Program-made: the position numbers and the translations under genes | Shown here: positions 33,438-62,979 of the stretch, piece by piece | Numbering within the stretch: position 1 is the first letter of the stretch | How the letters are laid out: each line of letters starts with the position of its first letter | The notes under the pieces: model-generated | What the model saw: the letters and a program-made list of their open reading frames with translations, nothing else | Database searches by the model: none | Told to the model about the DNA's origin: nothing | Assembly (NCBI RefSeq): GCF_000018545.1 | Contig: NC_012586.1 | Span: 1,116,001 to 1,180,000 of the forward strand | From: Sinorhizobium fredii NGR234 | Lineage (GTDB): Bacteria; Pseudomonadota; Alphaproteobacteria; Rhizobiales; Rhizobiaceae | Length of the DNA: 64,000 bases | Reading direction: 5' to 3'

Positions 33438-33466
33438 CCGGAGGTCGCCGCGATCGGGTTGTTACT

Positions 33467-33495
33467 TGAAATATTAGTGATATGGGGCTTAAATG
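33467..33495 (+). promoter_or_regulatory. Putative promoter of the sulfate-activation/polysaccharide operon
   Basis: TTGAAA (33467-33472) and TTAAAT (33490-33495) are separated by 17 bases, a good fit to a housekeeping promoter. The predicted leader is about 120 bases and contains short hairpins (CGCC-TTTC-GGCG near 33498, and CACCC/GGGTG near 33543-33562). A ribosome site GAGGGG precedes the cysD ATG. No recognisable riboswitch is seen. Confidence 0.5.
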
Positions 33496-33622: not shown

Positions 33623-34522
33623 ATGTCTCTTGCCAACCTTCGGCGACTTGAAGCTGAAGCCATTCATGTCCTTCGAGAAGTAGTCGCGACATTCTCTAAC
33701 CCGGTTGTCCTCTACTCGATCGGAAAGGACTCGTCCGTACTCCTGCATCTGGCGCTGAAGGCGTTCTACCCGGCAAAGCCGCCGTTTCCATTCCTGCATG
33801 TGGACACGACGTGGAAGTTCCGGGAGATGATCGCGTTTCGCGATCGGATGGCGCGGGAGCTCGGCTTCAATCTTCTCGTGCATACCAACCAGGACGGCGT
33901 CGACCAGGGCATCGGCCCGTTTACGCACGGCTCCAACCTGCACACTCACGTCATGAAGACCATGGCACTCAGGCAGGCCCTGGAGAACTACCGGTTCGAC
34001 GCGGCGCTCGCCGGCGCTCGGCGGGACGAGGAGAAGTCGCGCGCCAAGGAGCGCATGTTCTCGATCCGCAACGCCCAGCATGGCTGGGACCCGAAGCGCC
34101 AGCGGCCCGAGATGTGGAAGACCTACAACACCCGCGTCGGCGCCGGCGAGACGATGCGGGTGTTTCCCCTCTCCAATTGGACCGAGTTCGATATCTGGCA
34201 ATACATCCTTCAGGAAAACATCCCGATCGTGCCGCTCTATTTTGCGGCGCGCCGGCCGGTGGTGAGCCGCGACGGCATGCTGATCATGGTCGACGACGAT
34301 CGCATGCCGCTCGCACCGGGCGAAGAGGTGATGGACCGGATGGTCCGCTTCCGTACCCTCGGTTGTTATCCACTGACCGGCGCGTTCGATTCCGAGGCTG
34401 CCACGGTTCCGGACATATTGCGCGAAATGCTGACGGTGCGCACCTCCGAACGGCTGAGTCGGCTGATCGACACGGACGAGGCCGGCGCCATGGAGAAAAA
34501 GAAGCGCGAGGGGTACTTCTGA
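33623..34522 (+). CDS. cysD: Sulfate adenylyltransferase small subunit
   Basis: A 299-residue ATP-sulfurylase catalytic subunit that makes adenosine 5'-phosphosulfate from ATP and sulfate with CysN. The PP-loop motif is [18 protein letters not shown], followed by [13 protein letters not shown]. The downstream [14 protein letters not shown] and [15 protein letters not shown] are standard CysD segments. It is the first gene of a seven-gene operon. Its stop and the cysN start share one base (TGATG). Confidence 0.96.
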
Positions 34523-36423
34523 TGTCGTATCTTCAATCAGTGCCGCCACACGACCTGGCGGCGCATCTCGCCGATCACGACGGCAAGTCGGTGCTGCGCT
34601 TCATCACCTGCGGCTCCGTCGACGATGGCAAGTCGACGCTGATCGGCCGTCTGCTCGTCGATGCCAAGCTGATCTTCGAGGACCAGTTGGCGAATCTCGG
34701 CCGGGTCGGTACTTCGGCCGGCGCCAATGGCGAGGAAGTCGACCTTGCTTTGCTGCTCGACGGGCTCGAGGCCGAGCGCGAGCAGGGCATCACCATCGAC
34801 GTCGCCTACCGCTATTTCGCCACGGCGAAGCGCAAATTCATCGTTGCCGACACGCCTGGCCACGAGGAATATACCCGCAACATGGTAACCGGCGCTTCGA
34901 CAGCCGATCTCGCCGTCATCCTCATCGATAGCCACCAGGGAATTCTCACGCAGACCCGGCGCCATTCCTATATCGCTTCGCTGCTCGGCATCCGCCATGT
35001 CGTCCTGGCGGTCAACAAGTTCGACCTCGTCGAATTCCGTCAATCGGTCTTCGACGCGATCGCCCGCGATTATCGGGCTTTCGCGAAGAAACTCGGCTTT
35101 GTCAGCATCCAGCCGATCCCCATCTCGGCGCGGTTCGGCGACAACGTCATTTCGGCATCGCAGAACACGCCCTGGTACAAGGGGCCGGCGCTCCTCGAAT
35201 ACCTGGAGACGGTGCAACTCGATCCACCCGAGGCGGAGAGACCCTTCCGCCTCCCGGTGCAACTGGTCATGCGCCCCAACGCCGATTTCCGCGGCTATGC
35301 CGGGCAGATCGCTTCCGGCCGGATCTCGGTCGGCGATCCGGTCGTCGTCGCGAAATCCGGGCAGCACTCGTCGGTCAAGGCGATCGTCACCTTCGACGGC
35401 AATCTGGTGACGGCCGCCGAGGGCGAGGCTGTAACGCTCGTCCTTGCCAACGAGGTCGACGCCGCGCGCGGCAACATGCTGGTGTCACCTGCCGCGCGGC
35501 CCTTCGTGGCGGACCAGTTCCAGGCACATGTCATCTGGTTCGATGCCAGTCCAATGCTGCCCGGGCGCAGCTATATTCTCAGGACCGAGACGGACAGCGT
35601 CAGCGCGACGGTTACGACGCTCAAGCATCGGGTGAGCATCAACAGTTTTGCCCGCGAGGCGGCGAAGTCCTTGCAGATGAACGAAGTGGGCGTCTGCAAC
35701 ATCTCGACGCAGGCGCCGATCGTCTTCGACGCCTACAAGGACAACAGGGCGACCGGCAATTTCGTCTTCGTCGACCGGGCCACCAACGCGACGGTCGGCG
35801 CTGGCATGATCGATTTCCCGCTCAGGCGCGCCGACAACGTGCATTGGCAGGCGACCGACGTGAACAAGGCGGCGCGTTCGGCAATGAAGAGCCAGCGCCC
35901 GGCCGTCCTGTGGTTCACCGGTCTTTCCGGTTCGGGCAAGTCAACGATCGCCAACGCGCTCGACCGGCTCCTGCATGCCCGCGGCAAGCACACCTACATG
36001 CTCGACGGCGACAATGTGCGCCACGGGCTCAACCGCGACCTTGGCTTCACCGAAGCCGATCGCGTCGAGAATATCCGCCGTGTTGCCGAGGTCGCCAAGC
36101 TGATGGCCGATGCCGGGCTGATCGTGCTTGTCTCGTTCATTTCGCCGTTCCGCGGCGAGCGCCGGATGGCGCGCGAATTGATGGAGGAGGGCGAGTTCAT
36201 CGAAATTTTCGTCGACACGCCGCTCGAGGAATGCGCGCGACGCGACCCGAAGGGGCTTTACGAAAAGGCGTTGGCCGGCAAGATCGCCAACTTTACCGGC
36301 GTTTCTTCGCCCTACGAAATGCCCGAAAACCCGGAACTGCATCTGAAGACGGTCGAGGCGGACCCGACTGCCCTTGCCCTGAAGATCGAGGCATTCCTCG
36401 ACAGACAAATGGAGGATAGATGA
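34522..36423 (+). CDS. cysN: Bifunctional sulfate adenylyltransferase large subunit / APS kinase (CysN-CysC fusion, NodQ-like)
   Basis: A 633-residue fusion. The N-terminal GTPase domain (about 1-440) has [21 protein letters not shown] and NKFD and drives APS formation with CysD. The C-terminal APS kinase domain has P-loop GLSGSGKST at 467-475 and the [16 protein letters not shown] motif, and makes PAPS. This fusion is known from rhizobial NodQ, where PAPS feeds sulfotransferases. Because rhizobial cysteine synthesis is reported to use APS directly, the kinase domain points to sulfation. Coupled by overlap to cysD and cysQ. Confidence 0.96.
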
Positions 36424-37223
36424 CGCCCCTTTGCGAACTCTTCGAGCGTATCGCGCTCGAGGCCGGCGCGTCGATCCTCGCCGTCTACGAGGCGGGTCCG
36501 ACCGTGTGCTACAAGGATGATCATTCACCGGTGACCGAGGCGGATGAGCGAGCCGAAGCCATCATTCTCGGCCACCTGGCGGCAGCCTTCCCGCACATTC
36601 CGGTCGTTGCCGAGGAGGCCGTCGCCTCAGGCTGCGTCCCCGATATCAGTTGTGGCACGTTCTTCCTGGTCGATCCGCTCGACGGCACGAAGGAATTCAT
36701 CAACCGGCGCGACGACTTCACCGTCAATATCGCCCTTGTCGAGGGCAACCTTCCCGTAGCCGGCGTCGTCTATGCCCCGGCGCAGCGTTGCGCCTATGTC
36801 GCCGACAAAGGCCGGGCCGAGAAGCTCGTCTTCGGCGCCGGCGCCATGGTTGGACATCGGCAGGCGATCCGGGTGCGGCCCCGTGGCCCGGCGCTGACCG
36901 CTGTCGCCAGCCGCTCCCACAACTGCTCCGAGACCGAGGCGTTCCTCGCCGGCCACGGCGTCAAGGATTGTACCTCCGTCGGCTCGTCGCTCAAGTTCTG
37001 CCTGCTCGCCGAAGGCAGGGCGGATGTCTATCCGCGTTTCGGCCGGACCATGGAATGGGACACGGCGGCGGGCCATGCGGTGCTCAACGCCGCCGGCGGG
37101 TCGGTCGTCCGGTTGGACGGTTCGCGCCTGCCTTACGGCAAGATGAAGCAGGCTGACGACAGCGACTTCGCAAATCCGCATTTCGTCGCCTGGGCGGATA
37201 TGTCTCCGTTGACGGTTCCTTAG
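36420..37223 (+). CDS. cysQ: 3'(2'),5'-bisphosphate nucleotidase
   Basis: A 267-residue inositol-monophosphatase-fold enzyme. It shows VAEEAV, the metal-binding [22 protein letters not shown] (about 81-102) and the C-terminal [17 protein letters not shown]. CysQ hydrolyses PAP, the by-product inhibitor of sulfotransferases, to AMP. Its place directly after cysNC, in an ATGA overlap, supports a PAPS-using pathway rather than inositol metabolism. Confidence 0.94.
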
Positions 37224-37265
37224 GACCGCCGGCGGTTCGCAGGCACCGGCCAAGAGGAAATTCTC

Positions 37266-39227
37266 ATGTGTGGAATTGCCGGCCTGATAGATTATGCGCA
37301 GCGCGGTCGGGATGACGTGGCGCAGATATTGACGCGCATGACGGACGCCCTCGCTCACCGCGGGCCGGATGCTTCGGCTACATGGCTCGATCGCGATGGC
37401 CGTGTAGGTCTCGGACACCGTCGCCTGTCCATCATTGATCTCTCCCCCACGGGGGCCCAGCCTATGCATTCGAGCAGCGGCCGCTACTCGATCGTCTTCA
37501 ATGGGGAAGTCTACGGATTCCTTCGCCTGCGGGCCGCATTGGAGGAGCAGGGCGCTCGCTTCCGCGGCCACTCCGATACCGAAGTGCTCCTGGAGGCGAT
37601 CGAGACTTACGGCCTGGCAGGAGCATTGCAGCGCTGCAACGGCATGTTCGCCTTTGCGCTTTACGACAGCGCCACGCGACAGATCATCTTCGCCCGCGAC
37701 CGTATCGGCAAGAAGCCGCTGTACATCGGCGTATCCAAGCGTGGCGTTGCCTTCGGCTCCGAGTTGAAAAGCATCCGGGCGCATCCGTCCTTCCGCTCCG
37801 TCGAGGTAGACCCGGAGGCGTCGACGCTTTTCTTGCGATACGGCTACGTGCCGACGCCTTATTCGATCTACCGCGGCATCTTCAAGCTTCCGCATGGCTC
37901 CTGGCTGAGCCTCTCGGTCGACACGCCGCCGGCGTCGGCCTCGGCCGCCCTGGGCGGGGTCAAGAGCTATTGGGATGCGTTCGAGGCGGCGGAACGAGGC
38001 TATGCGGAGCGGATCGAATGCCCGGACGAAGCCTTGGACGCGCTCGACGCCGAATTGAAACGGGCGGTGAGCGAGCGCCTTGTCTCCGACGTGCCGGTGG
38101 GAGCCCTCCTTTCCAGCGGCGTCGACTCTTCCTTGGTGTCGGCCGTCATGCAGGAGGTTTCGACCTCGCGTGTGAAAACCTATACCGTGCGCTTCCTGGA
38201 GGAGCAGTATAACGAGGCGGATCTGGCGTCAGGCATCGCCAGGCAGCTCGGCACCGATCATACGGAGATCACGGCAGAGCCCGACACGGCACTGCGCGTC
38301 GTGACAGAGTTGCCGGATGTGTATGACGAGCCCTTCGCCGATCCTTCCCAGATTCCGACGCTGCTCGTATCGAAGCTGGCGCGAAGGACCGTAACGGTGG
38401 CGCTCTCGGGTGATGGCGGCGACGAGTTCTTCGGCGGCTACAAACGCTATCGGCAAATGCTCGCCTTCGACCGGCTGGCGAGGAAAACGCCTGCCGTCGC
38501 CCTGCGGGCGGCAAGGCACGCGCCTCACTGGGCGCTGGAATTTGCTGCTGCGGCGGCTCGCCATGCGCGTCCGTCTTCGCTTCAGGACGAAGTGACCGGC
38601 AAACGGCTAAGAAGACTTGCCGAGCTCCTGGAGATCGAAGACCCGGACGCCCGCTACCTGGACTTTCGCTCGCTCTGGTCGCATCCGGCCGAAGTCGTGT
38701 TCGGCGGGGCGGAGCCTCCGACCGCAATGACCGCGAAGCGGATACCGGCTTGCCTCGGCGCAGTCGACAGAATGATGTACAGCGACATGGTCGACTATCT
38801 GCCGGACGATATCCTCGTGAAGATGGACCGAGCGTCGATGGCGGTGGGCCTGGAGATGCGGGCACCGCTGCTCGATTACCGCTTCGTCGAACTGGCCTGG
38901 CGTGCGCCGAGGGCGTTGTGTTTTGCCGAAGCCCCGGGCAAGCCGGCGCTGCGCGCGCTCTTGTCCCGAAGGCTGCCGGAACAATTCATAAATCTTTCAA
39001 AACGCGGATTCGGCGTCCCCGTCAACGCCTGGTTGCGCGGACCGCTGCGCGCCTGGGCGGAAGAGATGCTGTCTCCGTCCCGCCTGCAGCGTGATGGGAT
39101 CTTCCGCGCCGATCCGATCGTCAGTCGCTGGAAGGCACACCTTGCCGGCCGCCGCGACTGGGGTCCGCAATTGTGGGCGGTGCTGATGTTCAACCTGTGG
39201 CACGATCGCTGGATGCGTTCCGGCTGA
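37266..39227 (+). CDS. asnB: Glutamine-dependent asparagine synthetase-like amidotransferase
   Basis: A 653-residue protein. An N-terminal glutamine amidotransferase domain begins MCGIAGLID with the Cys2 nucleophile. A synthetase domain has the PP-loop LLSSGVDSSLVSAVM and the ALSGDGGDEFFGGYKRY motif. Members near polysaccharide genes usually amidate sugar acids or other carboxylates rather than make asparagine for protein synthesis. It follows cysQ by 42 bases with its own AGAGGA site and is probably co-transcribed. The acceptor is unknown. Confidence 0.9.
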   Translation: MCGIAGLIDYAQRGRDDVAQILTRMTDALAHRGPDASATWLDRDGRVGLGHRRLSIIDLSPTGAQPMHSSSGRYSIVFNGEVYGFLRLRAALEEQGARFRGHSDTEVLLEAIETYGLAGALQRCNGMFAFALYDSATRQIIFARDRIGKKPLYIGVSKRGVAFGSELKSIRAHPSFRSVEVDPEASTLFLRYGYVPTPYSIYRGIFKLPHGSWLSLSVDTPPASASAALGGVKSYWDAFEAAERGYAERIECPDEALDALDAELKRAVSERLVSDVPVGALLSSGVDSSLVSAVMQEVSTSRVKTYTVRFLEEQYNEADLASGIARQLGTDHTEITAEPDTALRVVTELPDVYDEPFADPSQIPTLLVSKLARRTVTVALSGDGGDEFFGGYKRYRQMLAFDRLARKTPAVALRAARHAPHWALEFAAAAARHARPSSLQDEVTGKRLRRLAELLEIEDPDARYLDFRSLWSHPAEVVFGGAEPPTAMTAKRIPACLGAVDRMMYSDMVDYLPDDILVKMDRASMAVGLEMRAPLLDYRFVELAWRAPRALCFAEAPGKPALRALLSRRLPEQFINLSKRGFGVPVNAWLRGPLRAWAEEMLSPSRLQRDGIFRADPIVSRWKAHLAGRRDWGPQLWAVLMFNLWHDRWMRSG

Positions 39228-39258
39228 TGGAAACGGAAGGACGCTTATCAAGGGCGCA

Positions 39259-40008
39259 ATGAAAAGCATGGAACCGCAACGAAAGACGGATAGCGGCAAG
39301 CCGGTGTTCTCCCGCTTTCGGGATCTCGGCCGTGAGCAAGTGAATGTCGAACTCCAGGTTCATACCAACTGGACCGATGGGGAGGCGACAGTGCTCGAGG
39401 TGCTGCAGACGGCCAAGGAACGCGGCCTCGCCGAACTCGCCTTCACGGAGCATGTCCGAGAAGACACATCCTGGTTTCCCGAGTTCAAGGCCGAGATTCT
39501 TTCGGCTGTGGATTGCGTCGGCGCTATGCGCGTCTATGTCGGTTGCGAGACGAAAGCCATGGACGACAATGGGCGGCTCGATGTGTCGCAGTCCGTGCTC
39601 GACGCCTGCGATATCGTTCTTGGCGTCGTCCACCGCTTGCCGGACGGTGAGGGCGGCTATCTCGATTTCAAGCGGTTGTCATTCGAGGAGACGGCCGAAA
39701 TCGAATTCCGGCTGTCGACAGGCATGATTGCGAACGCGCCGATCGACGTGCTCGGACATCCGGGTGGGATGAGCCTCAGGCGATATGGCCGGTTTCCGGA
39801 GAACTACTTTCGCACCCTGATGACGGCGACGCTCGAGCGCGGGATCGCCATCGAGATCAACTCCTCGTACCTGATCGATATGCCGGGGTTCCTGGCGTTG
39901 TGCGACGACATCAATCCGTTTGTCTCGATCGGTTCCGATGCGCACAAGCTGAGTGACTTGGGGCGTTGCCGCGACAGGCTTCTCGAACTGGGGGTAGGGC
40001 TGACATGA
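39259..40008 (+). CDS. PHP-domain metal-dependent phosphoesterase-like protein with an altered first motif
   Basis: A 249-residue PHP-fold protein. Metal-ligand segments are FTEHVRED, VGCETKAMD, VLGVVHRL, DVLGHPGG and SIGSDAHKLSDLGR. The first motif, usually HxH, reads QVH (Gln33, His35) in VELQVHTNWTDG, so one ligand is replaced. PHP enzymes hydrolyse phosphate esters such as histidinol phosphate. It overlaps the ATP-grasp gene by four bases and lies in the sulfation/amidation operon. Substrate unknown. Confidence 0.84.
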   Translation: MKSMEPQRKTDSGKPVFSRFRDLGREQVNVELQVHTNWTDGEATVLEVLQTAKERGLAELAFTEHVREDTSWFPEFKAEILSAVDCVGAMRVYVGCETKAMDDNGRLDVSQSVLDACDIVLGVVHRLPDGEGGYLDFKRLSFEETAEIEFRLSTGMIANAPIDVLGHPGGMSLRRYGRFPENYFRTLMTATLERGIAIEINSSYLIDMPGFLALCDDINPFVSIGSDAHKLSDLGRCRDRLLELGVGLT

Positions 40009-40997
40009 AGGCCTTCATCACGGGCGCGGGCGCCCTCCTCGGACAGGGCATCATTCGCGCCTTGCGGCGCTCCACGCTTCGAGCGACCATTATCGTGGTG
40101 GACCCTAGCCCGCTCTCGGCCGGGCTCTACTGGGGCGATGCCGCCTATCTTGTCCCAATGGCGAAGGACCCTGAATACCTGGACAGGCTGGGCGACCTGC
40201 TGCGCACGGAGCGGCCCGACATCCTCATTCCCGGAACCGACGTGGAACTGCCGATCCTTTCAGCCAACCGCGAAGCGATCGAGAGCACCTACGGGATCAA
40301 GGTGATCATCAGTTCGCCACATGTCGTATCCATCGCCAACGACAAGTGGCTCACCTCCGCGTTCCTCCGGGAACGGGGACTGGGCTTCGTTCCCTCCTGC
40401 CTGCCAGGCGATGAGGAGGCGCTCATCGAGGGGTGCGGCTTTCCGCTCATCGTCAAACCGAGGATCGGCGCCAGGTCGATCGGCTTCGGCATCGTCCGCG
40501 ATCGAGACCAGCTAAGGCGCGCAATAGCCGAGCAGCCCGGCATCGTCATTCAGAAATATGTAGGCTCCGATGCGACCGAATACACGGCCGGGACACTCAC
40601 CTTCGACGGGAAATGTCGCGCGACGATCGTGATGCGCCGGGATCTGCGCGACGGCAATACCTACCGCGCCTTTGCCGAGCCGTTTCCCGACCTCAACGAG
40701 GCAATGGTGCAGGCCGCAGACGCCCTCGGCGCCTACGGGCCAGCAAACTTCCAGTTCCGCCTCGACGACGGTGTTCCGAGGATCTTCGAGATCAACGCGC
40801 GGTTTTCGGGCACGACGGCGGTGAGGATCCACGCCGGCTTCAACGAAGTGGAGATGTGCATCCGGCATTTGCTGTTCGGCGAACCGGTCGTTCAGCCGGA
40901 AATCACGCCGGTAACCATATTGCGGCACTGGTCGGAAACCGTCGTCAAATCCGGCGACCTGGTGACGGCCTCGGCTCGTCTGGAAGAAAAAGCATGA
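40005..40997 (+). CDS. ATP-grasp ligase (carbamoyl-phosphate synthase large-chain-like)
   Basis: A 330-residue ATP-grasp protein. The N-terminal preATP-grasp fold is seen in FITGAGALLGQGIIRAL. Then come the ATP-binding segment FPLIVKPRIGARSIGFGIV, VIQKYVGSDATEYTAG, and the metal-binding FEINARFSGTTAVR. Such stand-alone enzymes form amide or ester bonds from a carboxylate and ATP. It starts within the PHP gene end (ATGA). With AsnB upstream it may build an amide-linked substituent on a sugar or lipid; that is inference. Confidence 0.85.
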   Translation: MKAFITGAGALLGQGIIRALRRSTLRATIIVVDPSPLSAGLYWGDAAYLVPMAKDPEYLDRLGDLLRTERPDILIPGTDVELPILSANREAIESTYGIKVIISSPHVVSIANDKWLTSAFLRERGLGFVPSCLPGDEEALIEGCGFPLIVKPRIGARSIGFGIVRDRDQLRRAIAEQPGIVIQKYVGSDATEYTAGTLTFDGKCRATIVMRRDLRDGNTYRAFAEPFPDLNEAMVQAADALGAYGPANFQFRLDDGVPRIFEINARFSGTTAVRIHAGFNEVEMCIRHLLFGEPVVQPEITPVTILRHWSETVVKSGDLVTASARLEEKA

Positions 40998-41012
40998 GGA
41001 AAGAGATCGGCC

Positions 41013-41960
41013 GTGTGTACGAAGCAACTGGTGGTAACCGGCGCTACCGGCTTTGTCGGCGCGAGGGTTATTGAGCATGCACTTGCCCGAGGCTATGCCG
41101 TCGCCGCGCTTGTGCGCGATCCCGAGCGGGTCGCCGCGCGCAATGATTCTCGCTTGCGGCTCGAGAGATGGTCGGTCGGCTCCCCCCTGCCCGTGGTAGG
41201 GCAAGCGGATGCCCTGCTTCATCTCGCCGCCTACGTTCCGGCCGATTTCAGCGACGCCCGCGAGGCCGCCAGGTGTTTCGAGATCAATACCAACGGCGCC
41301 CTGCAGGTCGCAATGGAGGCCGCTTCCCAGGGCGTGAAGCGGCTGGTTTTCTTCGGATCCGCGCAAGTCTATGCGCCGGATGCCGGTCCGGCATCGGAAA
41401 CGAGCGCCACTTTTCCCCATCGCGCCAGCTACTATTTGGCGAGCAAGCTCTCTGCCGAGATTTGCCTGATCGCTTTCGGCAAGGCAAATGCGATGCCGGT
41501 GACGGTCCTCCGCCTCGCGTCCGTCTATGGCCCGGGCATGCACGCCACGGGAATGGTGCCTGCCTTTCTGCGGACACTCTTGGGCGGGCGCTCCTTGATC
41601 ATAGCCGACGGCGGGCAATACAGCGTCGACCTCGTTTATGTCGACGACGTCGTGACGCTGGCGCTCGGGGCGGTGGAGAAGAGCGTGGACGGTGTTTTCA
41701 ATGCCGGAAGCGGTCGCTCCTGCACGTCCCTGGAAGCGGCGCTGACGGTTGCAGATGTCGTCGGGGCAGACCGATTCCTCGTCGGGGTCGAGGCTGGCGG
41801 TAGCGATGCGGCTGCTCGAGGGTTCAGGGCGCTCGAGGTCGCCAAGGCAGCGAAGCTTCTCGATTACCGGCCCCGATCTTTTCGCGAGGGCATCGAAGCT
41901 TGGAAGACGGAGACCGGGTTTGGGCAGTTCGAGGACACGGTCGAACAAAACTGCCGTTAG
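41013..41960 (+). CDS. NAD-dependent epimerase/dehydratase (extended SDR)
   Basis: A 315-residue sugar-nucleotide-type SDR. The NAD-binding motif is VVTGATGFVGARV at the N terminus. The catalytic Tyr-x3-Lys is in ASYYLASKLSAE, and Ser/Ala-rich FFGSAQVYAP precedes it. The likely role is epimerisation or reduction of a nucleotide-activated sugar for the polysaccharide. It starts at a GTG with AGGAAAGAG upstream and is the last gene of the seven-gene operon. A perfect hairpin follows. Confidence 0.87.
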   Translation: MCTKQLVVTGATGFVGARVIEHALARGYAVAALVRDPERVAARNDSRLRLERWSVGSPLPVVGQADALLHLAAYVPADFSDAREAARCFEINTNGALQVAMEAASQGVKRLVFFGSAQVYAPDAGPASETSATFPHRASYYLASKLSAEICLIAFGKANAMPVTVLRLASVYGPGMHATGMVPAFLRTLLGGRSLIIADGGQYSVDLVYVDDVVTLALGAVEKSVDGVFNAGSGRSCTSLEAALTVADVVGADRFLVGVEAGGSDAAARGFRALEVAKAAKLLDYRPRSFREGIEAWKTETGFGQFEDTVEQNCR

Positions 41961-42081: not shown

Positions 42082-43248
42082 TCAGGCAAAAATGAAGTCA
42101 CTCCTCGAAAAGTTGGCCGCCGAGAGACTGCCGTTCGGATCGTCCACGAGGATCGAGAAGGCGTTGCCCGCGGCGTTGAGACCCTTGAGCAACACGTCGC
42201 CGTCGGTGGTGTTGTAGGCATAGATAGTGCCATTGCCGCCAGAGCTTGAATACTGCGTGACGCCGAGCTTCTCGATGACGAGAAAGTCCACGCCATCCTG
42301 AAAATCCATGATCGTGTCCTGGCCGCTGAGCGCGGGGGTCGCCTTGAAGACGAAACGGTCGGAGTCGGCACCGCCCCAAAGGATGTCGCTTCCTGCTTCA
42401 CCGATGAGGGTGTCCTTTCCGGCGTCACCGCGCAGGGTGTCATTGCCATCGCCGGCATAGATGAGGTCGATACCGTTGCCGCCCCTGAGCGAGTCGGTGC
42501 CGCCTTCGCCAGACAGGATGTCGTCGCCGTCATCCCCGAAGGCGATGTCGTTGCCGTCACCGACCGCGATCCTGTCGTTGCCGATGCCGCCGTGGGCTTC
42601 GTCGATGCCGTTTTCGGAATCGAGCACGTCATTGCCGTCGCCGCCGTCGAGATAGTTGTTCCCGTCGCCGCCATCGACGATGTCGTCGCCGATTCCGCCA
42701 TAGACGCGGTCGTGCCCCGACTGGCCTTTCAGGGCGTCATTGCCCTCTTCTCCATAGATGGTATCGTTGCCGGCGCCGCCCGAGACAGCCTGCTGCGTTA
42801 GCTTTCCAGTTGCCGGATCGATGCGATTGTTGAAGCCGTCATTTCCCGAGCCGGCATAGATGATGTCATCGCCGTAGCCTGCGTCGATATATTCTTCGCC
42901 TGCTCCACCGTAGATCTTGTCGTTTCCGCCGTCGCCCAGGATGTGATCGTGGCCGTCACCACCATCGATGGTGTCGTTGCCGTCACCGCCTTCGAAAATA
43001 TCGTTGCCCAGGCCACCGAAGAGCGTATCGGTCCCAAGCCCACCCTCAATGCGGTCGTTGCCGTCGCCGCCTTCGGCATAGTCGTCACCGAGTCCCGCCT
43101 TGATGTGATCGTTGCCGAGCCCACCGAAAAACCTGTCATTGCCTTCGCGACCGTCGAGGTAATCGTCGCCGGCATAGCCCCAGAGCTCGTCGTCATAGAG
43201 AGTGCCGAGAATCGTATCGGTGAGGTTGGTTCCCTTAAAAATCATCAT
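42082..43248 (-). CDS. RTX-type calcium-binding repeat protein (hemolysin-type nonapeptide repeats)
   Basis: A 388-residue acidic protein. It is made almost entirely of GGxGxDxxx nonapeptides, more than twenty, from about residue 24 to 300. The C-terminal segment DRFVFKATPALSGQDTIMDF is typical of type I secretion substrates. There is no N-terminal signal peptide, as expected for type I export. The repeats form a calcium-binding beta-roll outside the cell. AGGAG precedes two adjacent ATGs, 43248 and 43245; the second has better spacing. No type I secretion genes are nearby. Confidence 0.9.
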   Translation of the reverse strand: MMIFKGTNLTDTILGTLYDDELWGYAGDDYLDGREGNDRFFGGLGNDHIKAGLGDDYAEGGDGNDRIEGGLGTDTLFGGLGNDIFEGGDGNDTIDGGDGHDHILGDGGNDKIYGGAGEEYIDAGYGDDIIYAGSGNDGFNNRIDPATGKLTQQAVSGGAGNDTIYGEEGNDALKGQSGHDRVYGGIGDDIVDGGDGNNYLDGGDGNDVLDSENGIDEAHGGIGNDRIAVGDGNDIAFGDDGDDILSGEGGTDSLRGGNGIDLIYAGDGNDTLRGDAGKDTLIGEAGSDILWGGADSDRFVFKATPALSGQDTIMDFQDGVDFLVIEKLGVTQYSSSGGNGTIYAYNTTDGDVLLKGLNAAGNAFSILVDDPNGSLSAANFSRSDFIFA

Positions 43249-43474: not shown

Positions 43475-44557
43475 TTAACGCCTTAGAAAATTTGCATATT
43501 TTGCCCTGATCGCGGCGATCGCGTACTCATTTTCGACCCGCTCTCGGGCGTTGCGAGCATAGCGGGCATATTCGGTCGGGGAAAGATCGAGGATTTCGCG
43601 GATCGCCCCGGCGAGCGCATCCGGATCACGTGGGGGGACGGCAATGCCGGCACTTCCGGCGACCGTGGCGGCGTCGCCGACATCGGTCGTCACGATCGGC
43701 TTGGCGTAACTCATGGCCTCCGCAATCACGTTCGGAAAGCCCTCGGTCCTCGACGACAGCACCAAGGCGTCGATGCTGCGGTAGTAGGAGGGCATGTCGG
43801 AGATCTCGCCCCTGAGATCGACGGCATGCTCGGGCAAGCCCGCCTCCTCCATCAAGTCGATCACAGCGCGGTTGTCGCGGGAAAGCCCGTTGCCGGCCGC
43901 GGAAAAGAGCGCCTGCGGATGCGTCTTGCGCACGGCAGCCACCGCCTTGAAGAACGTGCCGTGATCCTTCTGCGGATGAAATCGGCCGACGATGCCGATC
44001 CGGAGGGCCGTCGTCGCCCCTGTCGGATCGATCCGCGGCAACTCGAAGCCGTTGGCGATGACGACCATGTTCCGATTTGCGTAGCCGTAGCCCCGATGCA
44101 ACTCGAGGGCGCGCGCGCTGTTGTAGATGATGCCGGCCGGCCGGCTCGACAAAAGCTTTGCCCCGAAAATTGCGAGGCGCGAACTGCGCGTAAGAGAGGC
44201 GGGATCGTCCAAGGACTGGCGAATGTTCCAGTAAACCGCTGCTCCGGATCGGGCCATCTGGGCCGCGATCATGCCAACGATCATCGCGTGGTACATCCAG
44301 CACAAGATTACATCGGGATGTTCCTTGCGGATAAGCCGGGCGAGCCGCAGGATCGCGCCCGGAAGCGCGGCGGGGGACGAGGCGTCCAGCGATACATAGG
44401 CAACTCTCGGATTGTCAGCGAGATTGCGGTTCCGATCCGAGACACCGATCAGCGAAACGACGACGATGCGCTCATCTGTGCAACCGTGAAGCAGCCGTGC
44501 CAGCATGGTCTCGGCGCCGGCACTGGCCGTGAAGTTGGTAATGACATGCATTATCAT
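43475..44557 (-). CDS. Glycosyltransferase family 4 (GT-B fold)
   Basis: A 360-residue retaining glycosyltransferase. The N-terminal acceptor domain starts MIMHVITNFTASAGAETMLARLL. The donor domain has IGIVGRFHPQKDHGTFFKAV and the EGFPNVIAEAMSYAKPIV nucleotide-sugar motif. I chose the ATG at 44557, right at the start of the conserved fold with AGGG seven bases upstream; longer frames overlap the neighbouring gene. It adds a sugar to the growing polysaccharide repeat on the cytoplasmic side. Confidence 0.89.
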   Translation of the reverse strand: MIMHVITNFTASAGAETMLARLLHGCTDERIVVVSLIGVSDRNRNLADNPRVAYVSLDASSPAALPGAILRLARLIRKEHPDVILCWMYHAMIVGMIAAQMARSGAAVYWNIRQSLDDPASLTRSSRLAIFGAKLLSSRPAGIIYNSARALELHRGYGYANRNMVVIANGFELPRIDPTGATTALRIGIVGRFHPQKDHGTFFKAVAAVRKTHPQALFSAAGNGLSRDNRAVIDLMEEAGLPEHAVDLRGEISDMPSYYRSIDALVLSSRTEGFPNVIAEAMSYAKPIVTTDVGDAATVAGSAGIAVPPRDPDALAGAIREILDLSPTEYARYARNARERVENEYAIAAIRAKYANFLRR

Positions 44558-44627
44558 CGCCGCGGCCCTGCGTTCGGCGCTGCCCATGGATCTCGCGAAG
44601 GAACGATCGCTGCGCCCTGAACGTCTG

Positions 44628-45824
44628 TCAAACGGCCAAGCCCATGCCGGCAAAGAGAATTCGGTTGATCATGTGCACGTCAAATCTGCTTTCGGCGAGT
44701 TCCCGCGAGCGCCGGCCCATTTTTTCGGCGAGATCCGGATCGCGCGCAAACGACGTCATCGCGTCGGCAAGGGCGGCGACATCGAGAGGCTTCACGGTCA
44801 TGCCGTTCACACCCGGCTGCACGGTATCGCGGCAGCCCGGCAGATCGGTCGTGATCACCGGTCTTCCGACCGCCAGCGCTTCGAGGATGCTCCGCGGAAT
44901 GCCTTCGCGATAGTAGGAAGGCAGCACGAAGACATTGCATGCCGCCAAGTAAGGGCGCACGTCGTCGGTGGTGCCAAGATACTCCAGTATTCCTTCCCCG
45001 ACCCAACCGTTGATCTCTTGGCGCGAGATTGCCGTCGGATTGCTGTCGAAGTGACCGAGCAGTTGAAATCGGGCATCGGGGAAAATGCGGCGCACGATCC
45101 TTGCGGCTTCGACATATTCCACCACGCCCTTGTCGCGCAGGAGCCGTGCGACCATAAGGAAGACGGGCCCGCCGGGAGCCGCTCGCGCGAAAGCAAAATG
45201 CTCCAGATCGACGCCGGATCCTGGAACCATCGTCGGCGTCAAAGCGTCCGGCAACATACGGTAGCGGCGAATGTCTTCCGCATCCGCGTCGTTATAGACA
45301 AAAACGACCCGCGCGCGTTTGAACGCCAGGCGATACAGCCGGACGCACAGGTGGCGAATGGCCAATGCTTTGAACGAGCGGCCGCCAGTTTCGGAAAAAA
45401 TGTGGCCAAGGCCCGTGACGAGGAAACACTGTTCCCTGATCCCGAGCGTTCGAGCGGCGATGCCGGCATAGATGATCGGCTTCATCGTGTAGGGCAGGAC
45501 CATGTCCGGCTTCAGCCGCTTGAAGTGTCGCCGCAGCGACCAAAAGGTCCGGATATCCTCGAGCGGATTGAGACCGGTGCGCACCATGGGAATGCGAATG
45601 AAGCGCACGCCGATCTCAGTGAGCGCCTGCTCGACACGCGGATCCTGCTCCGGAGCGAAGGCTATCACCTCGTGTCCGGCGCCGACCAATCGCTTCAGCA
45701 ACTCCAGCCGAAAAATCGTAAGAGACGCTGTCAGGCTTGCGACGACGGCGATCACGCGTCGGCGCGTCGGAGGCTGTGCAACACCGGAAGGTCCCGTTAC
45801 GCGGGCTATCTCCTCGGTTTGCAT
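44628..45824 (-). CDS. Glycosyltransferase family 4 (GT-B fold), second
   Basis: A roughly 398-residue glycosyltransferase. It has RRVIAVVASLTASLTIFRLELLKRLVGAG in the acceptor domain (read in parts), GPVFLMVARLLRDKGVVEYVEAA at the start of the donor domain, and REGIPRSILEALAVGRPVITTD as the donor-binding motif. The start is uncertain. I give the ATG at 45824 just before the conserved fold, but a GTG at 45863 or a TTG at 45881 that abuts the upstream stop are possible. It resembles the WcaI/PssF-like transferases that follow CapD-type dehydratases. Confidence 0.87.
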   Translation of the reverse strand: MQTEEIARVTGPSGVAQPPTRRRVIAVVASLTASLTIFRLELLKRLVGAGHEVIAFAPEQDPRVEQALTEIGVRFIRIPMVRTGLNPLEDIRTFWSLRRHFKRLKPDMVLPYTMKPIIYAGIAARTLGIREQCFLVTGLGHIFSETGGRSFKALAIRHLCVRLYRLAFKRARVVFVYNDADAEDIRRYRMLPDALTPTMVPGSGVDLEHFAFARAAPGGPVFLMVARLLRDKGVVEYVEAARIVRRIFPDARFQLLGHFDSNPTAISRQEINGWVGEGILEYLGTTDDVRPYLAACNVFVLPSYYREGIPRSILEALAVGRPVITTDLPGCRDTVQPGVNGMTVKPLDVAALADAMTSFARDPDLAEKMGRRSRELAESRFDVHMINRILFAGMGLAV

Positions 45825-45881
45825 GCGGGCAAAATGCTCAGCGGAACTCAAGGCTGACCTCACCGCGCTTCCATTTTTCAA

Positions 45882-48077
45882 CTAATCCGGCAACCGAAGC
45901 CCGCCGCGGGCGCTCCTTTGGTAGACTTGCCGCCGTGGAGCCGCGGCCTTGCTGCGGCTATGCGGCTGGAGCCGGCTCCGCTTCTTCTTCATGGCGCGAG
46001 GCTTCGTATTGCCGGCATCGTGTTCGTAGCGCGGCAGCAGTTCGCGCATGACCGCCCCGACGGCCGGATCGTTGCCCCGCTCCGCATAGCGCTGCAGACG
46101 AGTGAAGGCGTCCCGCAAAGTGGACAAGGGAATGGGCTCCGGAACCGCACCCAGAACGCCCGGCACCGGAGACGTCGTGCGCTTGTCGCTCTCGTCGAAA
46201 AGTTCCTCGTAGAGCTTCTCCCCCGGCCGGCAACCGATGATCTTGATCTCGATGTCCTGGTCCGGGGTAAAACCGGCCAGCCGGATCATCCGGCGCGCAA
46301 TGTCGACGATCTTGACCGGCTCGCCCATGTCGAGAACGAAAATCTCTCCCTGTCCGAGTTGTTTTTCAAAGCCGTAGGCCGAGGCCTGCAGCGTCAGTTC
46401 CACGGCCTCACGGATCGTCATGAAAAAGCGCGTCATACATGGATCGGTGACGGTCAATGGGCCGCCTCTTGCAAGCTGACGCTTGAACAGCGGGATCAGC
46501 GATCCGCTCGATCCCAGCACGTTGCCGAAGCGAACTGTCATGAACCGCGGACCTTTGCCGGTTTGGAGGCCGTCCAGGTCGAGCGCCTGGCAATAGAGCT
46601 CCGCGAGGCGCTTCGTCCCCCCCATGACGCTTGTCGAGTTCACAACCTTGTCGGTCGATACCTGGACCATGGCAAGGGTGCCGTATTTCTTTGCCGCATT
46701 GGCAACGTTCATAGTGCCGATGACGTTCGTGAGGACGCCCTCGCAGGGATTCATCTGCACCATAGGCACATGCTTGAGGGCTGCAGCATGGAAGACCAGC
46801 TCGGGCCGGTGCCGCTTGAATATTTCCTCGACGCGCTGGCTGCGCCGGACGCTGCAAAGGTAACTCGACGGTGACAGCTTCGGGAAGGTCTCGGTGAGCG
46901 TCATGTCGATCGAATAAAGATTGTATTCCGAATTGTCGACCAGCACGATCTCCGCCGGCTCGCATGCGGCGACTTGCGTGGTCAGCTCGCTGCCGATCGA
47001 TCCGCCGGCCCCGGTGATCAGCACGCGCCGGCCACGAACGAGACGGGCGATCGCCTCGCAATCGAGCGCCGCTTGCGGGCGCTCCAGGAGGTCGGTGAGC
47101 TCGATCGACCGCAGTTCGTAGGGATTGTCTCCCTTGGCGTGCTTGAGTTCGGTCAGCTGCGACAGGCGCGACACTGCAATGCCGAGCCTATCGGCCGACT
47201 GCAGCAGCGCGTCCGACGCGGTTTCGCCGAAATTCGCCGGCGCTTCGGTGAACACGACGTGACGCGGCCGCTTGTTGATCTGCTCGAGTTCCGCCACGAC
47301 CTGTTCGAAATCCTCGACCCGGCCCGCGATCGGCACGCCACGAAGGCTCATTCCGATCTGGTCCGCATTTTTGTCGAGGCAGGCCACCGGTACATGAGTG
47401 GCATTCGGATCCCGGGCGAGTGCGCGCAGGTAAAGCTCGGCGGCGTCGCCCGCTCCGACGAGCAGCAGCGGGACGTGGTGTTCGTCCGCCCCCTTGTTGC
47501 GCCCGTTCTTGAAAACGGGCCGCGCCAGTGGGATTTCCTCGGCACGAAAGCTGAGCCGCGCGGCCGCGAGGAAGGCGATCAGAAGGAGCGACTGCATCGG
47601 CACGACGGTTCGCGGCATATCGACCAGTCTCGTCGAAAAGAACAGGAGCGAGATGAGCAATAGAGACGTCACGAGGACTGCGCGAAGAATGATCAGGAGA
47701 TCGGAGATGGAGCCATATTTCCAGTTTCGGCTGTAGAGGCCGGACAGGGGGAAAACGAAGGCGCAAATGGCGATATACTGGGCACCGGACCACAGCAGCA
47801 CAGAGGCGGTTTCAGGCCTCGCGCTCAGCTCGGCAAAGCCGTAACGCAGCAACAGCGCCACGGCGAGCGCCACGCCTGCGGAGCCAAGGTCGGCAACATA
47901 GAGGGCCGGGTATTTCTGAACGCTGAAGACGGCTCCTCGTAGACGCCGATACCCGATGTCGAGGCCGGCGCCGAATACCGGCAGCAGCATCTTGGCCGAT
48001 GATCTTAGCGCTCCGCGTCTCGGCAACATTAGGAAACTATCGCGCACTGCCTTCGCGGCGTCGTAAAAACGCTGCAT
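45882..48077 (-). CDS. Membrane-anchored nucleotide-sugar 4,6-dehydratase (FlaA1/WbpM/CapD family)
   Basis: A 731-residue protein. Four to five N-terminal membrane segments (about 60-180) are followed by a Rossmann domain and then by the catalytic SDR domain. That domain has VLITGAGGSIGSELTTQ and VSTDKVVNSTSVMGGTKRLAE. In this subfamily Met replaces the usual catalytic Tyr (MxxxK), as seen here. It makes 4-keto-6-deoxy nucleotide sugars such as the UDP-QuiNAc pathway intermediate. The basic C-terminal tail of about 40 residues is unusual. AAAGGG lies upstream of the ATG. Confidence 0.92.
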   Translation of the reverse strand: MQRFYDAAKAVRDSFLMLPRRGALRSSAKMLLPVFGAGLDIGYRRLRGAVFSVQKYPALYVADLGSAGVALAVALLLRYGFAELSARPETASVLLWSGAQYIAICAFVFPLSGLYSRNWKYGSISDLLIILRAVLVTSLLLISLLFFSTRLVDMPRTVVPMQSLLLIAFLAAARLSFRAEEIPLARPVFKNGRNKGADEHHVPLLLVGAGDAAELYLRALARDPNATHVPVACLDKNADQIGMSLRGVPIAGRVEDFEQVVAELEQINKRPRHVVFTEAPANFGETASDALLQSADRLGIAVSRLSQLTELKHAKGDNPYELRSIELTDLLERPQAALDCEAIARLVRGRRVLITGAGGSIGSELTTQVAACEPAEIVLVDNSEYNLYSIDMTLTETFPKLSPSSYLCSVRRSQRVEEIFKRHRPELVFHAAALKHVPMVQMNPCEGVLTNVIGTMNVANAAKKYGTLAMVQVSTDKVVNSTSVMGGTKRLAELYCQALDLDGLQTGKGPRFMTVRFGNVLGSSGSLIPLFKRQLARGGPLTVTDPCMTRFFMTIREAVELTLQASAYGFEKQLGQGEIFVLDMGEPVKIVDIARRMIRLAGFTPDQDIEIKIIGCRPGEKLYEELFDESDKRTTSPVPGVLGAVPEPIPLSTLRDAFTRLQRYAERGNDPAVGAVMRELLPRYEHDAGNTKPRAMKKKRSRLQPHSRSKAAAPRRQVYQRSARGGLRLPD

Positions 48078-56314: not shown

Positions 56315-57226
56315 CTAAGGCACATGGTGGAATTTGCCGTGTACCGGCGGGCGCTTTCCACTGGGGGAGGCCCAGGCCAGCACATCGATGCACTGACCAT
56401 CGCCGCACAGGACGACGAAGCCGCGTTCCGAATGGCATTGGACCTGGCCCACCAATCCGATGAAGCGCCCGGCGTTTTCGAACTGTACGGCTGCGTCGAT
56501 ACGGATCCTCTCGCCGTCGTAAAAGGAAAACGCGCCGGGATAAGGGGCCCCGACTGCACGGATAAGCCGGAGTATCGAGCCGGCAGGTGCATTCCAGTCG
56601 ATGAGCCCGTCTTCGGCGGTTCGCCTCGCACAATAGCTCGCCTGGTCATCATCTTGCTCGATCCGAGGCGGCTTATCGGTGTCAACGAGTGCAACCGCTT
56701 CAGTCACCATCTCGCTCAGATTTGTCGTGTGCTTGGCATAGAGGCTCCGAGCGGTTTCGTCGGCGGCCACGGTGAACAGCCGCTGAAGCAAGATGGGGCC
56801 GGAGTCGATGCCTTCATCCAACCAAAACAACGTTGATCCGGTCACGTGTTCGTCTTGTATTATCGTCCAGGGAATAACCGCACGCCCGCGCAAACGCGGC
56901 AAGGCGGCCGGGTGGAACCCGATAGTCCCCAGGCGAGCGACATCTCGAAATGGCTGCCGGCAGATTTGCGACCAGCCAATAACGAACGTCAGGTCGGGCT
57001 CAACCGAAGCCATCGCCTCCAGGACGGCGGGGTGATTGATGTCTGTTGTGAAGCAAACGGCACACCCGGCGGTACGCCCGACGACTTCCAAATCGGCGAA
57101 ATCGGAGTGGCGTCCGGCCAACTCGGGTGGCAGGGTGATAACCAGTGCAGGAGCGCGCCCCGTCTTAATGAGCGCTTCCAGGGCGATTCTGGAACTCTCA
57201 ACGGCGCCGACGAAAACGATACGCAT
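56315..57226 (-). CDS. Formyltransferase family protein (sugar N-formyltransferase or Fmt-like)
   Basis: A 303-residue formyltransferase-fold protein (MRIVFVGAVESSRIALEALI). The catalytic region TIGFHPAALPRLRGRAVIPW has His105, and Asp141 lies 36 residues on in DEGIDSGP. Both match the usual His-Asp spacing. The conserved Asn two residues before the His is Gly103 here. Enzymes of this type in polysaccharide loci transfer formyl from 10-formyl-THF to amino-sugars. The ATG at 57226 was preferred over a TTG two codons upstream. It lies 280 bases before the sensor kinase gene. Confidence 0.83.
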   Translation of the reverse strand: MRIVFVGAVESSRIALEALIKTGRAPALVITLPPELAGRHSDFADLEVVGRTAGCAVCFTTDINHPAVLEAMASVEPDLTFVIGWSQICRQPFRDVARLGTIGFHPAALPRLRGRAVIPWTIIQDEHVTGSTLFWLDEGIDSGPILLQRLFTVAADETARSLYAKHTTNLSEMVTEAVALVDTDKPPRIEQDDDQASYCARRTAEDGLIDWNAPAGSILRLIRAVGAPYPGAFSFYDGERIRIDAAVQFENAGRFIGLVGQVQCHSERGFVVLCGDGQCIDVLAWASPSGKRPPVHGKFHHVP

Positions 57227-62577: not shown

Positions 62578-62979
62578 GTTTAGCGTGCCGCCGCGTGGAG
62601 GAAAGGGCAGGATTAACCTGGCTGAAAGGGCTTCACTTGGCATAAATAATTGGAGAATAGTTGCAAAGGGGCGCGCTCAAGGCTGATCGACAGTAAAGCT
62701 AATCGGATTGCTAATCAGGCATGGATGCACTATCGTTATTTCTTTGTTTCTTTTGTTCGTTCGAACGAGAGCGGCTATTCCCAGCAGGAAGTTGGGGTGG
62801 TCCACGCGGCGCGCGTTCGATTGCGAGTGAGGTTGCGGCTATTTCGTGCCGACCCTTCTTCTAGTGATTGCGCTCTGCGGCAAGATTGCAGTCGACCCCA
62901 TCTACTGGTGGGCAGCCGGCCTTGATGCGCGCAGGCAGAATTGAAGGCAAGCTCAAGCGGTCTCATGTGAAAGGCTGTG
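62578..62979. other. Intergenic region before the sulfotransferase gene
   Basis: About 400 bases without a supported gene. The first half is AT-rich (around 62640-62770) and may contain a promoter for the sulfotransferase. A 32-codon hydrophobic frame starts at a GTG at 62846 and ends at 62944 (VPTLLLVIALCGKIAVDP at its start). Its ribosome site is poorly placed, so I do not call it a gene. Confidence 0.3.

Follow-up and report, generated by a model that had tools for sequence, protein, structure and literature searches.

Gene content and organization of the operon

Seven genes on the forward strand occupy positions 33623-41960 of the window, by which we mean the whole analyzed stretch of 64,000 nucleotides. 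The contig carrying it is 2.43 Mb in size and resembles Sinorhizobium pSymB. According to Pfam and NCBIfam, the operon begins with cysD (nodP-type; 33623..34522, +), encoding the small subunit of ATP sulfurylase (TIGR02039, 521.8 bits, cut-off 396.6), cysNC (nodQ-type; 34522..36423, +), encoding a fusion of the ATP sulfurylase large subunit and APS kinase that makes PAPS (NF004035, 1037.5 bits, cut-off 715; PF01583), and cysQ (36420..37223, +), encoding 3'(2'),5'-bisphosphate nucleotidase, which removes PAP (TIGR01331, 284.4 bits, cut-off 228.8). They are followed by genes for an AsnB-like glutamine amidotransferase (37266..39227, +), a PHP-domain phosphoesterase-like protein (39259..40008, +; PF02811, alignment and motif survey), an ATP-grasp ligase-like protein (40005..40997, +; NF009402, 459.2 bits, cut-off 218, scored in the frame from 39966), and an extended SDR of the NAD-dependent epimerase/dehydratase type (41013..41960, +; PF01370, 142 bits). 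Several orthologues of the PHP gene start at the next ATG, 39268. The next gene at the far end of the operon, on the opposite strand, encodes an RTX-type calcium-binding protein (42082..43248, -; eight stretches matching PF00353).

The genes are tightly packed, with overlaps at three junctions and gaps of 15-42 bases at the other three. The start and stop codons overlap as TGATG at cysD/cysNC and as ATGA at cysNC/cysQ, in line with the translational coupling proposed in the initial annotation, and its gene order, families, and downstream spacing were all confirmed from coordinates and Pfam/NCBIfam: 42 bases between cysQ and the asnB-like gene, 31 between the latter and the PHP gene, -4 (an ATGA overlap) between the PHP and ATP-grasp genes, and 15 before the SDR gene. 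A conserved element, CTTGAAA-N17-TTAAAT, lies upstream of cysD (33465..33494, +) and is the probable operon promoter. In an alignment of upstream regions from 13 loci, chosen out of those fetched, CTTGAAA is kept in all 13 amid variable flanks, and TTAAAT follows 17 bases later in 12, the S. saheli sequence being TTTAAT. This element is compatible with a single promoter for the operon.

A consensus scan found no promoter-like or terminator-like match inside the operon gaps, including the one between cysQ and asnB, and a split of the operon at that point was set aside on this weak method. Over 13 kb, the scan yielded three promoter-like sites against 2.3 expected and five terminator-like sites against 9.5 expected, and counts so near or below expectation give it little weight. 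In S. meliloti GR4 and 4H41, the cysQ-asnB gap is about 150 bases long and contains an inverted repeat visible by eye. The published Clr box had no match upstream of cysD in the window or in S. meliloti 1021; its sole match in the window, at 50847, falls within a carbamoyltransferase gene.

Sulfate activation

The cysNC gene of the operon is the only match to the APS kinase family PF01583 in the genome; the same search found a match in 11 of 14 control genomes. The housekeeping cysH, which adjoins a cysN without the kinase domain, scores above the cut-off for APS reductase (271.7 versus 235.3 bits) but does not pass the model for PAPS reductase. Since there is one APS kinase domain and cysH is of the APS-reductase type, PAPS most simply serves sulfotransferases. 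With APS kinase present and sulfur assimilation predicted from sequence models not to depend on PAPS, the three genes can be classified as a dedicated module supplying PAPS for sulfation. The description of PAPS as central to assimilation (PMC4053727) counts against the reading that PAPS serves sulfotransferases alone. Two short nodQ-like pieces, on opposite strands and one with two stops, were found on the smallest contig.

The AsnB-like amidotransferase

The best NCBIfam score of the AsnB-like protein was to eps_aminotran_1 (TIGR03108), although it remained under the cut-off of this model (512.1 versus 816.9 bits). The protein passes the general asparagine synthase model asn_synth_AEB (TIGR01536; 434.9 bits, cut-off 267.1), as does an AsnB-like protein of a Leisingera glycan cluster (433.4), and misses the cut-off of the AsnB equivalog PRK09431 (243.9 versus 499). 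The next relative in the genome is one 679-aa frame with 29%-34% identity, so there is no close second copy. Members of eps_aminotran_1, such as WbpS, WbqG, and PGN_1234, are likewise AsnB-like, occur in a surface-glycan context, and are optional between related organisms; unlike them, the window protein does not reach the family cut-off. WbpS of P. gingivalis is described as making a uronamide, while T. forsythia, in which no asnB homologue was found, keeps the acid (PMC7468200). By analogy with such relatives, the AsnB-like enzyme may amidate a sugar acid of a glycan.

R. setariae has a UDP-glucose-dehydrogenase-like gene near the PHP, ATP-grasp, and SDR genes, as do R. alarense and Ferirhizobium at about 80% identity, but no match to the R. 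setariae-type UDP-sugar dehydrogenase was found in the window or the 19 kb beyond it, nor in the S. meliloti 1021 and R. sullae stretches. The sugar acid must therefore be supplied from elsewhere, which makes a uronamide less likely in the cluster of the window itself.

The PHP, ATP-grasp, and SDR proteins

The first metal-binding motif of the PHP protein is QxH instead of HxH, as in 118 of 120 relatives among the matches listed. The PolX chain 3b0y, which we take to be from T. thermophilus, has the same Gln, so this change alone is no proof of lost activity, and the idea of a dead enzyme was dropped. The PDB relatives of the PHP protein are PolX and, weakly, YcdX. For the ATP-grasp protein, 2pn1 ranked first, followed by carbamoyl-phosphate synthase, D-Ala ligase, RimK, LysX, PurK-like, and other proteins; an AlphaFold model built from seven close rows had a mean pLDDT of 35 and was set aside.

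The surrounding polysaccharide cluster

Beyond the RTX gene, the window encodes two glycosyltransferases (43475..45881, -; PF13692/PF00534), a membrane-type UDP-GlcNAc 4,6-dehydratase-like protein (45882..48077, -; PF02719, 364.3 bits, with the PseB and FnlA models below cut-off), a NodU-like carbamoyltransferase (49337..51169, -; PF02543 and PF16861, NodU model below cut-off), and an ArnA/Fmt-like N-formyltransferase (56315..57232, -; PF00551 and PF02911, NCBIfam models below cut-off). Genes for a Wzz/tyrosine autokinase-like protein of chain-length control (57770..59800, +; PF02706, TIGR01005 below cut-off), a Wzy_C O-antigen ligase/polymerase-like protein (61264..62577, +; PF04932), and a sulfotransferase, a likely PAPS user (62977..63906, +; PF13469, 63.2 bits), were also identified. 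A second sulfotransferase of the cluster is encoded 2.7 kb past the window. Together with the Wzy-like protein, the same cluster includes a flippase, export genes, and sugar-nucleotide enzymes.

Judged by sequence and gene order, the orthologous genes on pSymB of S. meliloti 1021 are nodP2-nodQ2 and those from SMb21225 onwards, which open a 30-kb cluster; protein identity within the operon is 73%-88%. Common to both are cysD-cysNC-cysQ followed by the PHP, ATP-grasp, and SDR genes, flanked by a ROK gene on one side and by the RTX, two glycosyltransferase, and dehydratase genes on the other, as well as neighboring formyltransferase, sulfotransferase, and Wzz genes. Within the operon, the two differ in gene content by asnB alone, which 1021 lacks between cysQ and the PHP gene. 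Between the dehydratase and formyltransferase genes, the window holds the carbamoyltransferase, an SGNH protein, and a two-component system, whereas 1021 has a transposase-like ORF. Reportedly, Townsend in 2006 found nodPQ to be needed for a sulfated surface polysaccharide in Mesorhizobium loti, a system related in this respect.

The 30-kb nodP2-smb21248 cluster has already been suggested to make a sulfated polysaccharide, and its product was proposed in 2017 as a candidate signal in the control of root infection (PMC5498481). Clr activates nodP2, nodQ2, a sulfotransferase, and polysaccharide genes of this cluster, possibly indirectly according to the authors (PMC5498481). SMb21225-SMb21228 are not among the seven Clr targets named for the cluster (PMC5498481), and thus a single transcript is not proven. 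In an S. meliloti phbC phaR strain under low phosphate, the ATP-grasp protein SMb21227, NodP, and cluster proteins went up together; SMb21227, SMb21229, SMb21240, ExoF3, and NodP (SMa0855) formed one phaR-responsive proteome module, and SMb21227 was not detected in TY (PMC12542648). By its name, SMa0855 is the pSymA copy of NodP and not that of the cluster.

Distribution of the gene set

Among 33 Sinorhizobium genomes, all 27 bearing cysNC had the PHP gene and/or asnB within 6 kb downstream: both in 8, the PHP gene only in 14, and asnB only in 5. Conversely, all 22 PHP genes lay within 6 kb of cysNC, which contradicts the rarity that the initial annotation ascribed to sulfate activation beside this enzyme set. 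The possibility it raised that the last four genes never accompany sulfation genes does not hold in the genome neighborhoods either. This linkage across the genus and the optional pattern of asnB are newly found. Because 14 of the 22 PHP loci lack asnB and five loci have it without the PHP gene, asnB is separable from the rest. Its presence varies even within S. meliloti and within S. americanum, where strain CCGM7 keeps merely a remnant. The fewest asnB changes were six on the cysNC tree and four on the ATP-grasp tree, both being quick SH-aLRT trees with several weak branches (window-fredii 42 and aridi-meliloti 5, both cysNC); the near duplicates americanum_156, fredii_USDA205, and mel_ml21 were left out, as was one ATP-grasp row from S. 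mexicanum that proved to be a 30% paralogue.

In R. setariae, R. alarense, and R. sullae, genes for a formyltransferase, a PIG-L deacetylase, and a DegT aminotransferase precede PHP-ATP-grasp-SDR, and reading 10 kb to each side of the trio revealed no sulfate genes in these three species. The three partner genes are absent from the list of the initial annotation. In a sample drawn evenly from the family, 10 of 394 genomes had the PHP gene (E 1e-20); across the phylum, 36 of 398 genomes matched the PHP profile (E 1e-25), but 34 of these matches were distant. None of 28 distant loci (26%-33% identity; up to 1.5 kb read on each side, three loci being shorter) contained ATP-grasp, SDR, asnB, or cys genes in tblastn searches with the window proteins (E 1e-4). 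A wide spread of the trio was accordingly rejected, and the claim for the trio is based on Rhizobiaceae and a small number of organisms outside that family.

Proposed function

Within a surface polysaccharide cluster of the Wzx/Wzy type, the operon is probably the part that supplies PAPS and modifies sugars. CysD and CysNC would convert sulfate and ATP to PAPS, the two cluster sulfotransferases would sulfate the polymer or its precursor, and CysQ would clear the by-product PAP. The PHP, ATP-grasp, and SDR proteins may work with the 4,6-dehydratase, DegT aminotransferase, PIG-L deacetylase, and formyltransferase of the cluster to form an unusual amino sugar bearing an N-acyl group, probably formyl. 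Deacetylation would come first and re-acylation by the ATP-grasp ligase second, with the PHP protein acting as a phosphatase and the SDR catalyzing an epimerization or a reduction. In strains that have it, the AsnB-like enzyme could, like WbpS, form the amide from a sugar-acid carboxylate of this glycan. The genes, their order, linkage, and copy number, and the pattern of presence and absence are observed directly; these reactions of the last four genes, and a product shared by them, are what we infer from the gene families and context. Naming the likely partners of the trio leaves a narrower chemistry to test.

In bacillithiol and mycothiol synthesis, a deacetylase and then a ligase act on an amino sugar. 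Similarly, a PIG-L deacetylase (BshB1 model, below cut-off) is encoded near the ATP-grasp gene in the loci without sulfation genes, and a Paenibacillus locus has PIG-L, PHP, and ATP-grasp (23% match) genes with PHP in between; the ligase family here is different.

The initial annotation had suggested one product both sulfated and amidated. This is plausible in the present strain, where the last four genes share one polysaccharide cluster with the PAPS genes, but a single fixed pathway is at odds with the loci lacking asnB and with the trio of the three Rhizobium species. No product structure was found in the literature for any strain with this cluster, and no published account of this enzyme set was found in a search that covered few subscription journals.

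Alternative explanations

The sulfate genes could instead serve Nod-factor sulfation and adjoin polysaccharide genes by mere chance, as both nodPQ copies of S. meliloti are stated to be used exclusively for this purpose (PMC4053727) and 11 of the 27 Sinorhizobium genomes with cysNC carry a second copy of it. We regard this as improbable. S. fredii is reported to have one nodPQ and no nodH (PMC4053727), Nod factors were unsulfated in four soybean strains, which the authors attribute to nodPQ not being expressed (PMC6275314), the one APS kinase domain of the genome sits in this operon, and the linkage of cysNC to PHP and/or asnB holds in all 27 genomes of the genus that bear it. Similarly improbable is a trio product that is small and soluble, resembles a peptide or nucleoside, and has no connection with the polymer. 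The PHP and ATP-grasp families are chemically broad and their PDB relatives point to no single lead, but polysaccharide genes share the trio's stretch at 16 of 17 Rhizobiaceae loci, the remaining one (L056) showing only PHP and formyltransferase genes, and in a deltaproteobacterial MAG, PHP-ATP-grasp-SDR lies in an apparent run of nonulosonic-acid synthesis genes, named from their sequences.

Slightly less doubtful, though still unlikely, is an ordinary asparagine synthetase hitch-hiking in the operon, which would agree with the TIGR01536 score and the lack of a close second copy. The top NCBIfam score for eps_aminotran_1 and the missed cut-off of the AsnB equivalog argue against it, as do a glycosyltransferase gene directly adjacent to distant relatives (44%-50% identity) in all seven loci opened, the PHP loci without asnB, the 18 genomes out of 33 in which a search at E 1e-150 did not find asnB, and the deletion remnant in S. 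americanum CCGM7.

Possible implications for a surface polymer

As a tentative suggestion, the slot behind the PAPS genes might act as a switchboard for polymer charge, with a constant sulfation supply and with asnB and the trio gained, lost, and swapped between strains. There, asnB would turn an acid into an amide, and the trio would open a hitherto undescribed route, by deacetylation and renewed acylation, to a formamido sugar that is acylated. Natural pairs for reading the effect of asnB on the polymer are S. meliloti GR4 or 4H41 (with asnB) versus 1021 (without), and S. americanum CFNEI 73 (with asnB) versus CCGM7 (remnant). Should the suggestion be true, legume hosts would meet the sulfated polymer as an amide from strains with asnB and as a free acid from those without it.

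Seven-gene operon and its counterpart in Sinorhizobium meliloti

The operon occupies positions 33623–41960 of the + strand and comprises cysD, a nodQ-type cysNC, cysQ, an asnB-like gene, and a trio encoding PHP, ATP-grasp, and SDR proteins. Gene calls, family matches, and reading of the junctions confirmed the seven genes, places, and order proposed in the initial annotation, and the layout is real rather than a chance arrangement. In the window sequence, the cysD/cysNC junction is a TGATG overlap (34520–34524), and the cysNC/cysQ (36420–36423) and PHP/ATP-grasp (40005–40008) junctions are ATGA overlaps; the cysQ-asnB, asnB-PHP, and ATP-grasp-SDR gaps are 42, 31, and 15 bases. The next gene after SDR, for an RTX calcium-binding protein, lies on the opposite strand, and on the upstream side 185 bases separate a ROK gene from cysD. 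Alignment of this interval in 13 Sinorhizobium loci, selected out of those fetched, revealed CTTGAAA in all 13 and TTAAAT 17 bases further in 12. No promoter or terminator match was found in the internal gaps by a consensus scan.

The 6.89-Mb NGR234 genome consists of three contigs, with the window on C2 (G000:C2:1116001–1180000). Matches covering at least 80% of the 8.8-kb operon region came from 14 plasmid records, every one from Sinorhizobium, the best (89%–92% identity) belonging to S. fredii-type strains. The window order without asnB recurs on pSymB of S. meliloti ml21 (cysD-nodQ-cysQ-PHP-ATP-grasp-oxidoreductase-calcium-binding protein), and asnB is likewise missing from the same arrangement in S. 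meliloti 1021. Since the gene order matches both strains, the window operon is, on this comparison, the nodP2Q2 operon of S. meliloti. SMb21223 and SMb21224 are named as nodP2 and nodQ2 and SMb21228 as an epimerase (PMC5498481), and SMb21227 as an ATP-grasp protein (PMC12542648). SMb21225 is also named in the literature, and SMb21226 would be PHP from gene order.

Linkage of the operon genes across the genus and beyond

Among 33 genomes of the genus, NGR234 included, cysNC was found in 27, PHP in 22, and asnB in 15 (E-value cut-offs of 1e-200, 1e-60, and 1e-150, respectively). With linkage defined from listed coordinates as a downstream location on the same strand within 6 kb start to start, cysNC was combined with asnB and PHP in 8 genomes, with PHP in 14 (one of which, G788, has a distant asnB), and with asnB without PHP in 5; one genome had asnB alone and five had none. 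PHP and/or asnB adjoined cysNC in all 27 genomes with this gene, and all 22 PHP genes adjoined cysNC; a second cysNC was present elsewhere in 11 of the 27.

In an even draw of 394 genomes of the family, 10 contained the PHP gene, the window counted, with adjoining cys genes in 7 and none there in 3. On GTDB contigs, membership of the PHP family was confirmed at 20 loci. Thirteen had the order cysNC-cysQ-PHP-ATP-grasp-SDR, four of them with asnB, and three (R. setariae, R. alarense, and R. sullae) had formyltransferase-PIG-L deacetylase-DegT aminotransferase-PHP-ATP-grasp-SDR, with no cys genes within the 10 kb read; one of the others had formyltransferase and PHP, and three were distant. In AFS054504, an isolate outside the genus, PIG-L, DegT, and formyltransferase genes precede cysD-cysNC-cysQ-PHP-ATP-grasp-SDR. 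PIG-L may free an amine on a sugar, which ATP-grasp could re-acylate, while PHP could take off phosphate and SDR could epimerize or reduce. PIG-L, PHP, and ATP-grasp-like genes are also neighbors in Paenibacillus contaminans (ATP-grasp match 23%).

The asnB-like gene and a possible mosaic operon

Within S. meliloti, asnB is present in GR4 and 4H41 and missing from 1021 and ml21. S. americanum CFNEI 73 has the gene, and CCGM7 only its two ends, about 320 bases; this remnant sits between cysQ and PHP (L064:9752–10168). S. mexicanum has asnB without the trio; another ATP-grasp gene (29% identity) adjoins its formyltransferase gene at L061:21909–23648. In asnB-bearing S. meliloti loci, the cysQ-asnB gap is about 150 bases (L062:19607–19758 and L048:7858–8010) and contains an inverted repeat, recognized by eye, that is absent from the window.

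Window proteins are 92%–95% identical to those of S. fredii in asnB, PHP, ATP-grasp, and cysNC and 68% in SDR (41013–41960), which is 85% identical to that of S. americanum, suggesting an SDR allele swap. E. aridi cysNC is nearer S. meliloti (92%), and its asnB and ATP-grasp are nearer S. fredii (92%). In quick trees, S. glycinis and S. shofinae grouped with S. fredii in cysNC (support 99), whereas their ATP-grasp grouped with that of S. meliloti (95); aridi had nearly no support (5) for its place in the cysNC tree. Because protein identities point to different relatives gene by gene, these data suggest a mosaic operon.

The AsnB-like protein had its top NCBIfam score with eps_aminotran_1, under that model's cut-off, and passed the general asparagine-synthase model without reaching the AsnB equivalog. 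A glycosyltransferase gene directly adjoined the distant AsnB relative in all seven opened loci (44%–50% identity), hand-picked among 60 records listed, lying on the other strand in Ruegeria. The Leisingera locus has a sulfotransferase gene two genes off and a PRK12767-like ATP-grasp gene, scoring below the cut-off, two genes on. The AsnB-like WbpS of Porphyromonas gingivalis forms a uronamide, and Tannerella forsythia, without WbpS, retains the acid (PMC7468200), which offers a close parallel for an amidation gene that is optional. A nucleotide-sugar dehydrogenase gene lies near the trio in R. setariae, with relatives (~80%) in R. alarense and Ferirhizobium. Neither the window and the 19 kb beyond it nor the stretches from R. 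sullae and 1021 gave a match to it; therefore, a sugar acid in the window polymer is putative and the uronamide argument is weaker.

PAPS supply and its use

A profile search that detected APS kinase (PF01583) in 11 of 14 control genomes gave a single match in the NGR234 genome, in the operon cysNC, making the PAPS argument firmer. The second CysN, on C3 (47% identity), lacks the APS kinase domain. Its gene adjoins cysH, which passes the APS-reductase model (271.7 versus a cut-off of 235.3), fails the PAPS-reductase equivalog (137.6 versus 254.2), and also exceeds the general PRK02090 phosphoadenylyl-sulfate reductase cut-off (243.8 versus 154). Since the sole APS kinase is here and cysH is of the APS-reductase type, PAPS is probably not needed for cysteine synthesis, and PAPS from the operon appears best explained as the sulfotransferase donor. 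Counting against this are statements that S. meliloti nodPQ serves Nod factor only and that PAPS is central to assimilation (PMC4053727); S. fredii is reported there to have one nodPQ and no nodH. Unsulfated Nod factors in four soybean Sinorhizobium strains were attributed by the authors to unexpressed nodPQ (PMC6275314).

C1, the smallest contig, contains two short nodQ-like pieces (G000:C1:442255–442596), one of 68 residues with two internal stops and one of 35 residues on the opposite strand, in contrast to the intact copy in the window.

Surrounding polysaccharide cluster

Together with the 19 kb that follow it, the window encodes sugar-modifying enzymes (4,6-dehydratase, DegT aminotransferase, PIG-L deacetylase, formyltransferase, and carbamoyltransferase), two sulfotransferases, glycosyltransferases, an initiating sugar transferase, a Wzz/kinase, a Wzy_C protein, a flippase, and an export protein. 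These genes identify the region as a surface polysaccharide cluster of the Wzx/Wzy type. The 1021 stretch lacks a match to the NodU-like carbamoyltransferase (49337–51169) and to the kinase of a two-component system (53631–56065; kinase HisKA_3 by Pfam, regulator by sequence reading). The 1021 locus has an ORF read as transposase-like between the dehydratase and formyltransferase genes (L008:24171–25001). A pectate-lyase-like protein of the cluster, beyond the window (L019:52–1533; PelZ score below the cut-off) is a possible polymer-cleaving enzyme.

For the orthologous S. meliloti cluster, a sulfated polysaccharide has already been proposed as the product; seven of its genes, including nodP2, nodQ2, and one sulfotransferase, are described there as Clr-activated, with SMb21225–SMb21228 outside these seven (PMC5498481). 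A 2025 proteome module unites NodP (SMa0855), the ATP-grasp protein SMb21227, SMb21229, SMb21240, and ExoF3, all up in a phbC phaR strain at low phosphate and undetected in TY (PMC12542648); SMa0855 is the pSymA NodP copy, 99.7% similar to nodP2 according to the 2017 paper (PMC5498481). The module shows that one enzyme of the last four (asnB-like and trio) is expressed alongside polysaccharide proteins in S. meliloti.

The core cluster was already known in S. meliloti; new here are the asnB component, the loss of that gene, and the likely partners of the trio. The proposal of a shared sulfating and amidating pathway was right in kind, as the genes belong to one polysaccharide cluster, but the set is not a fixed seven-gene pathway: its three parts (PAPS supply, asnB, and the trio) occur in several combinations.
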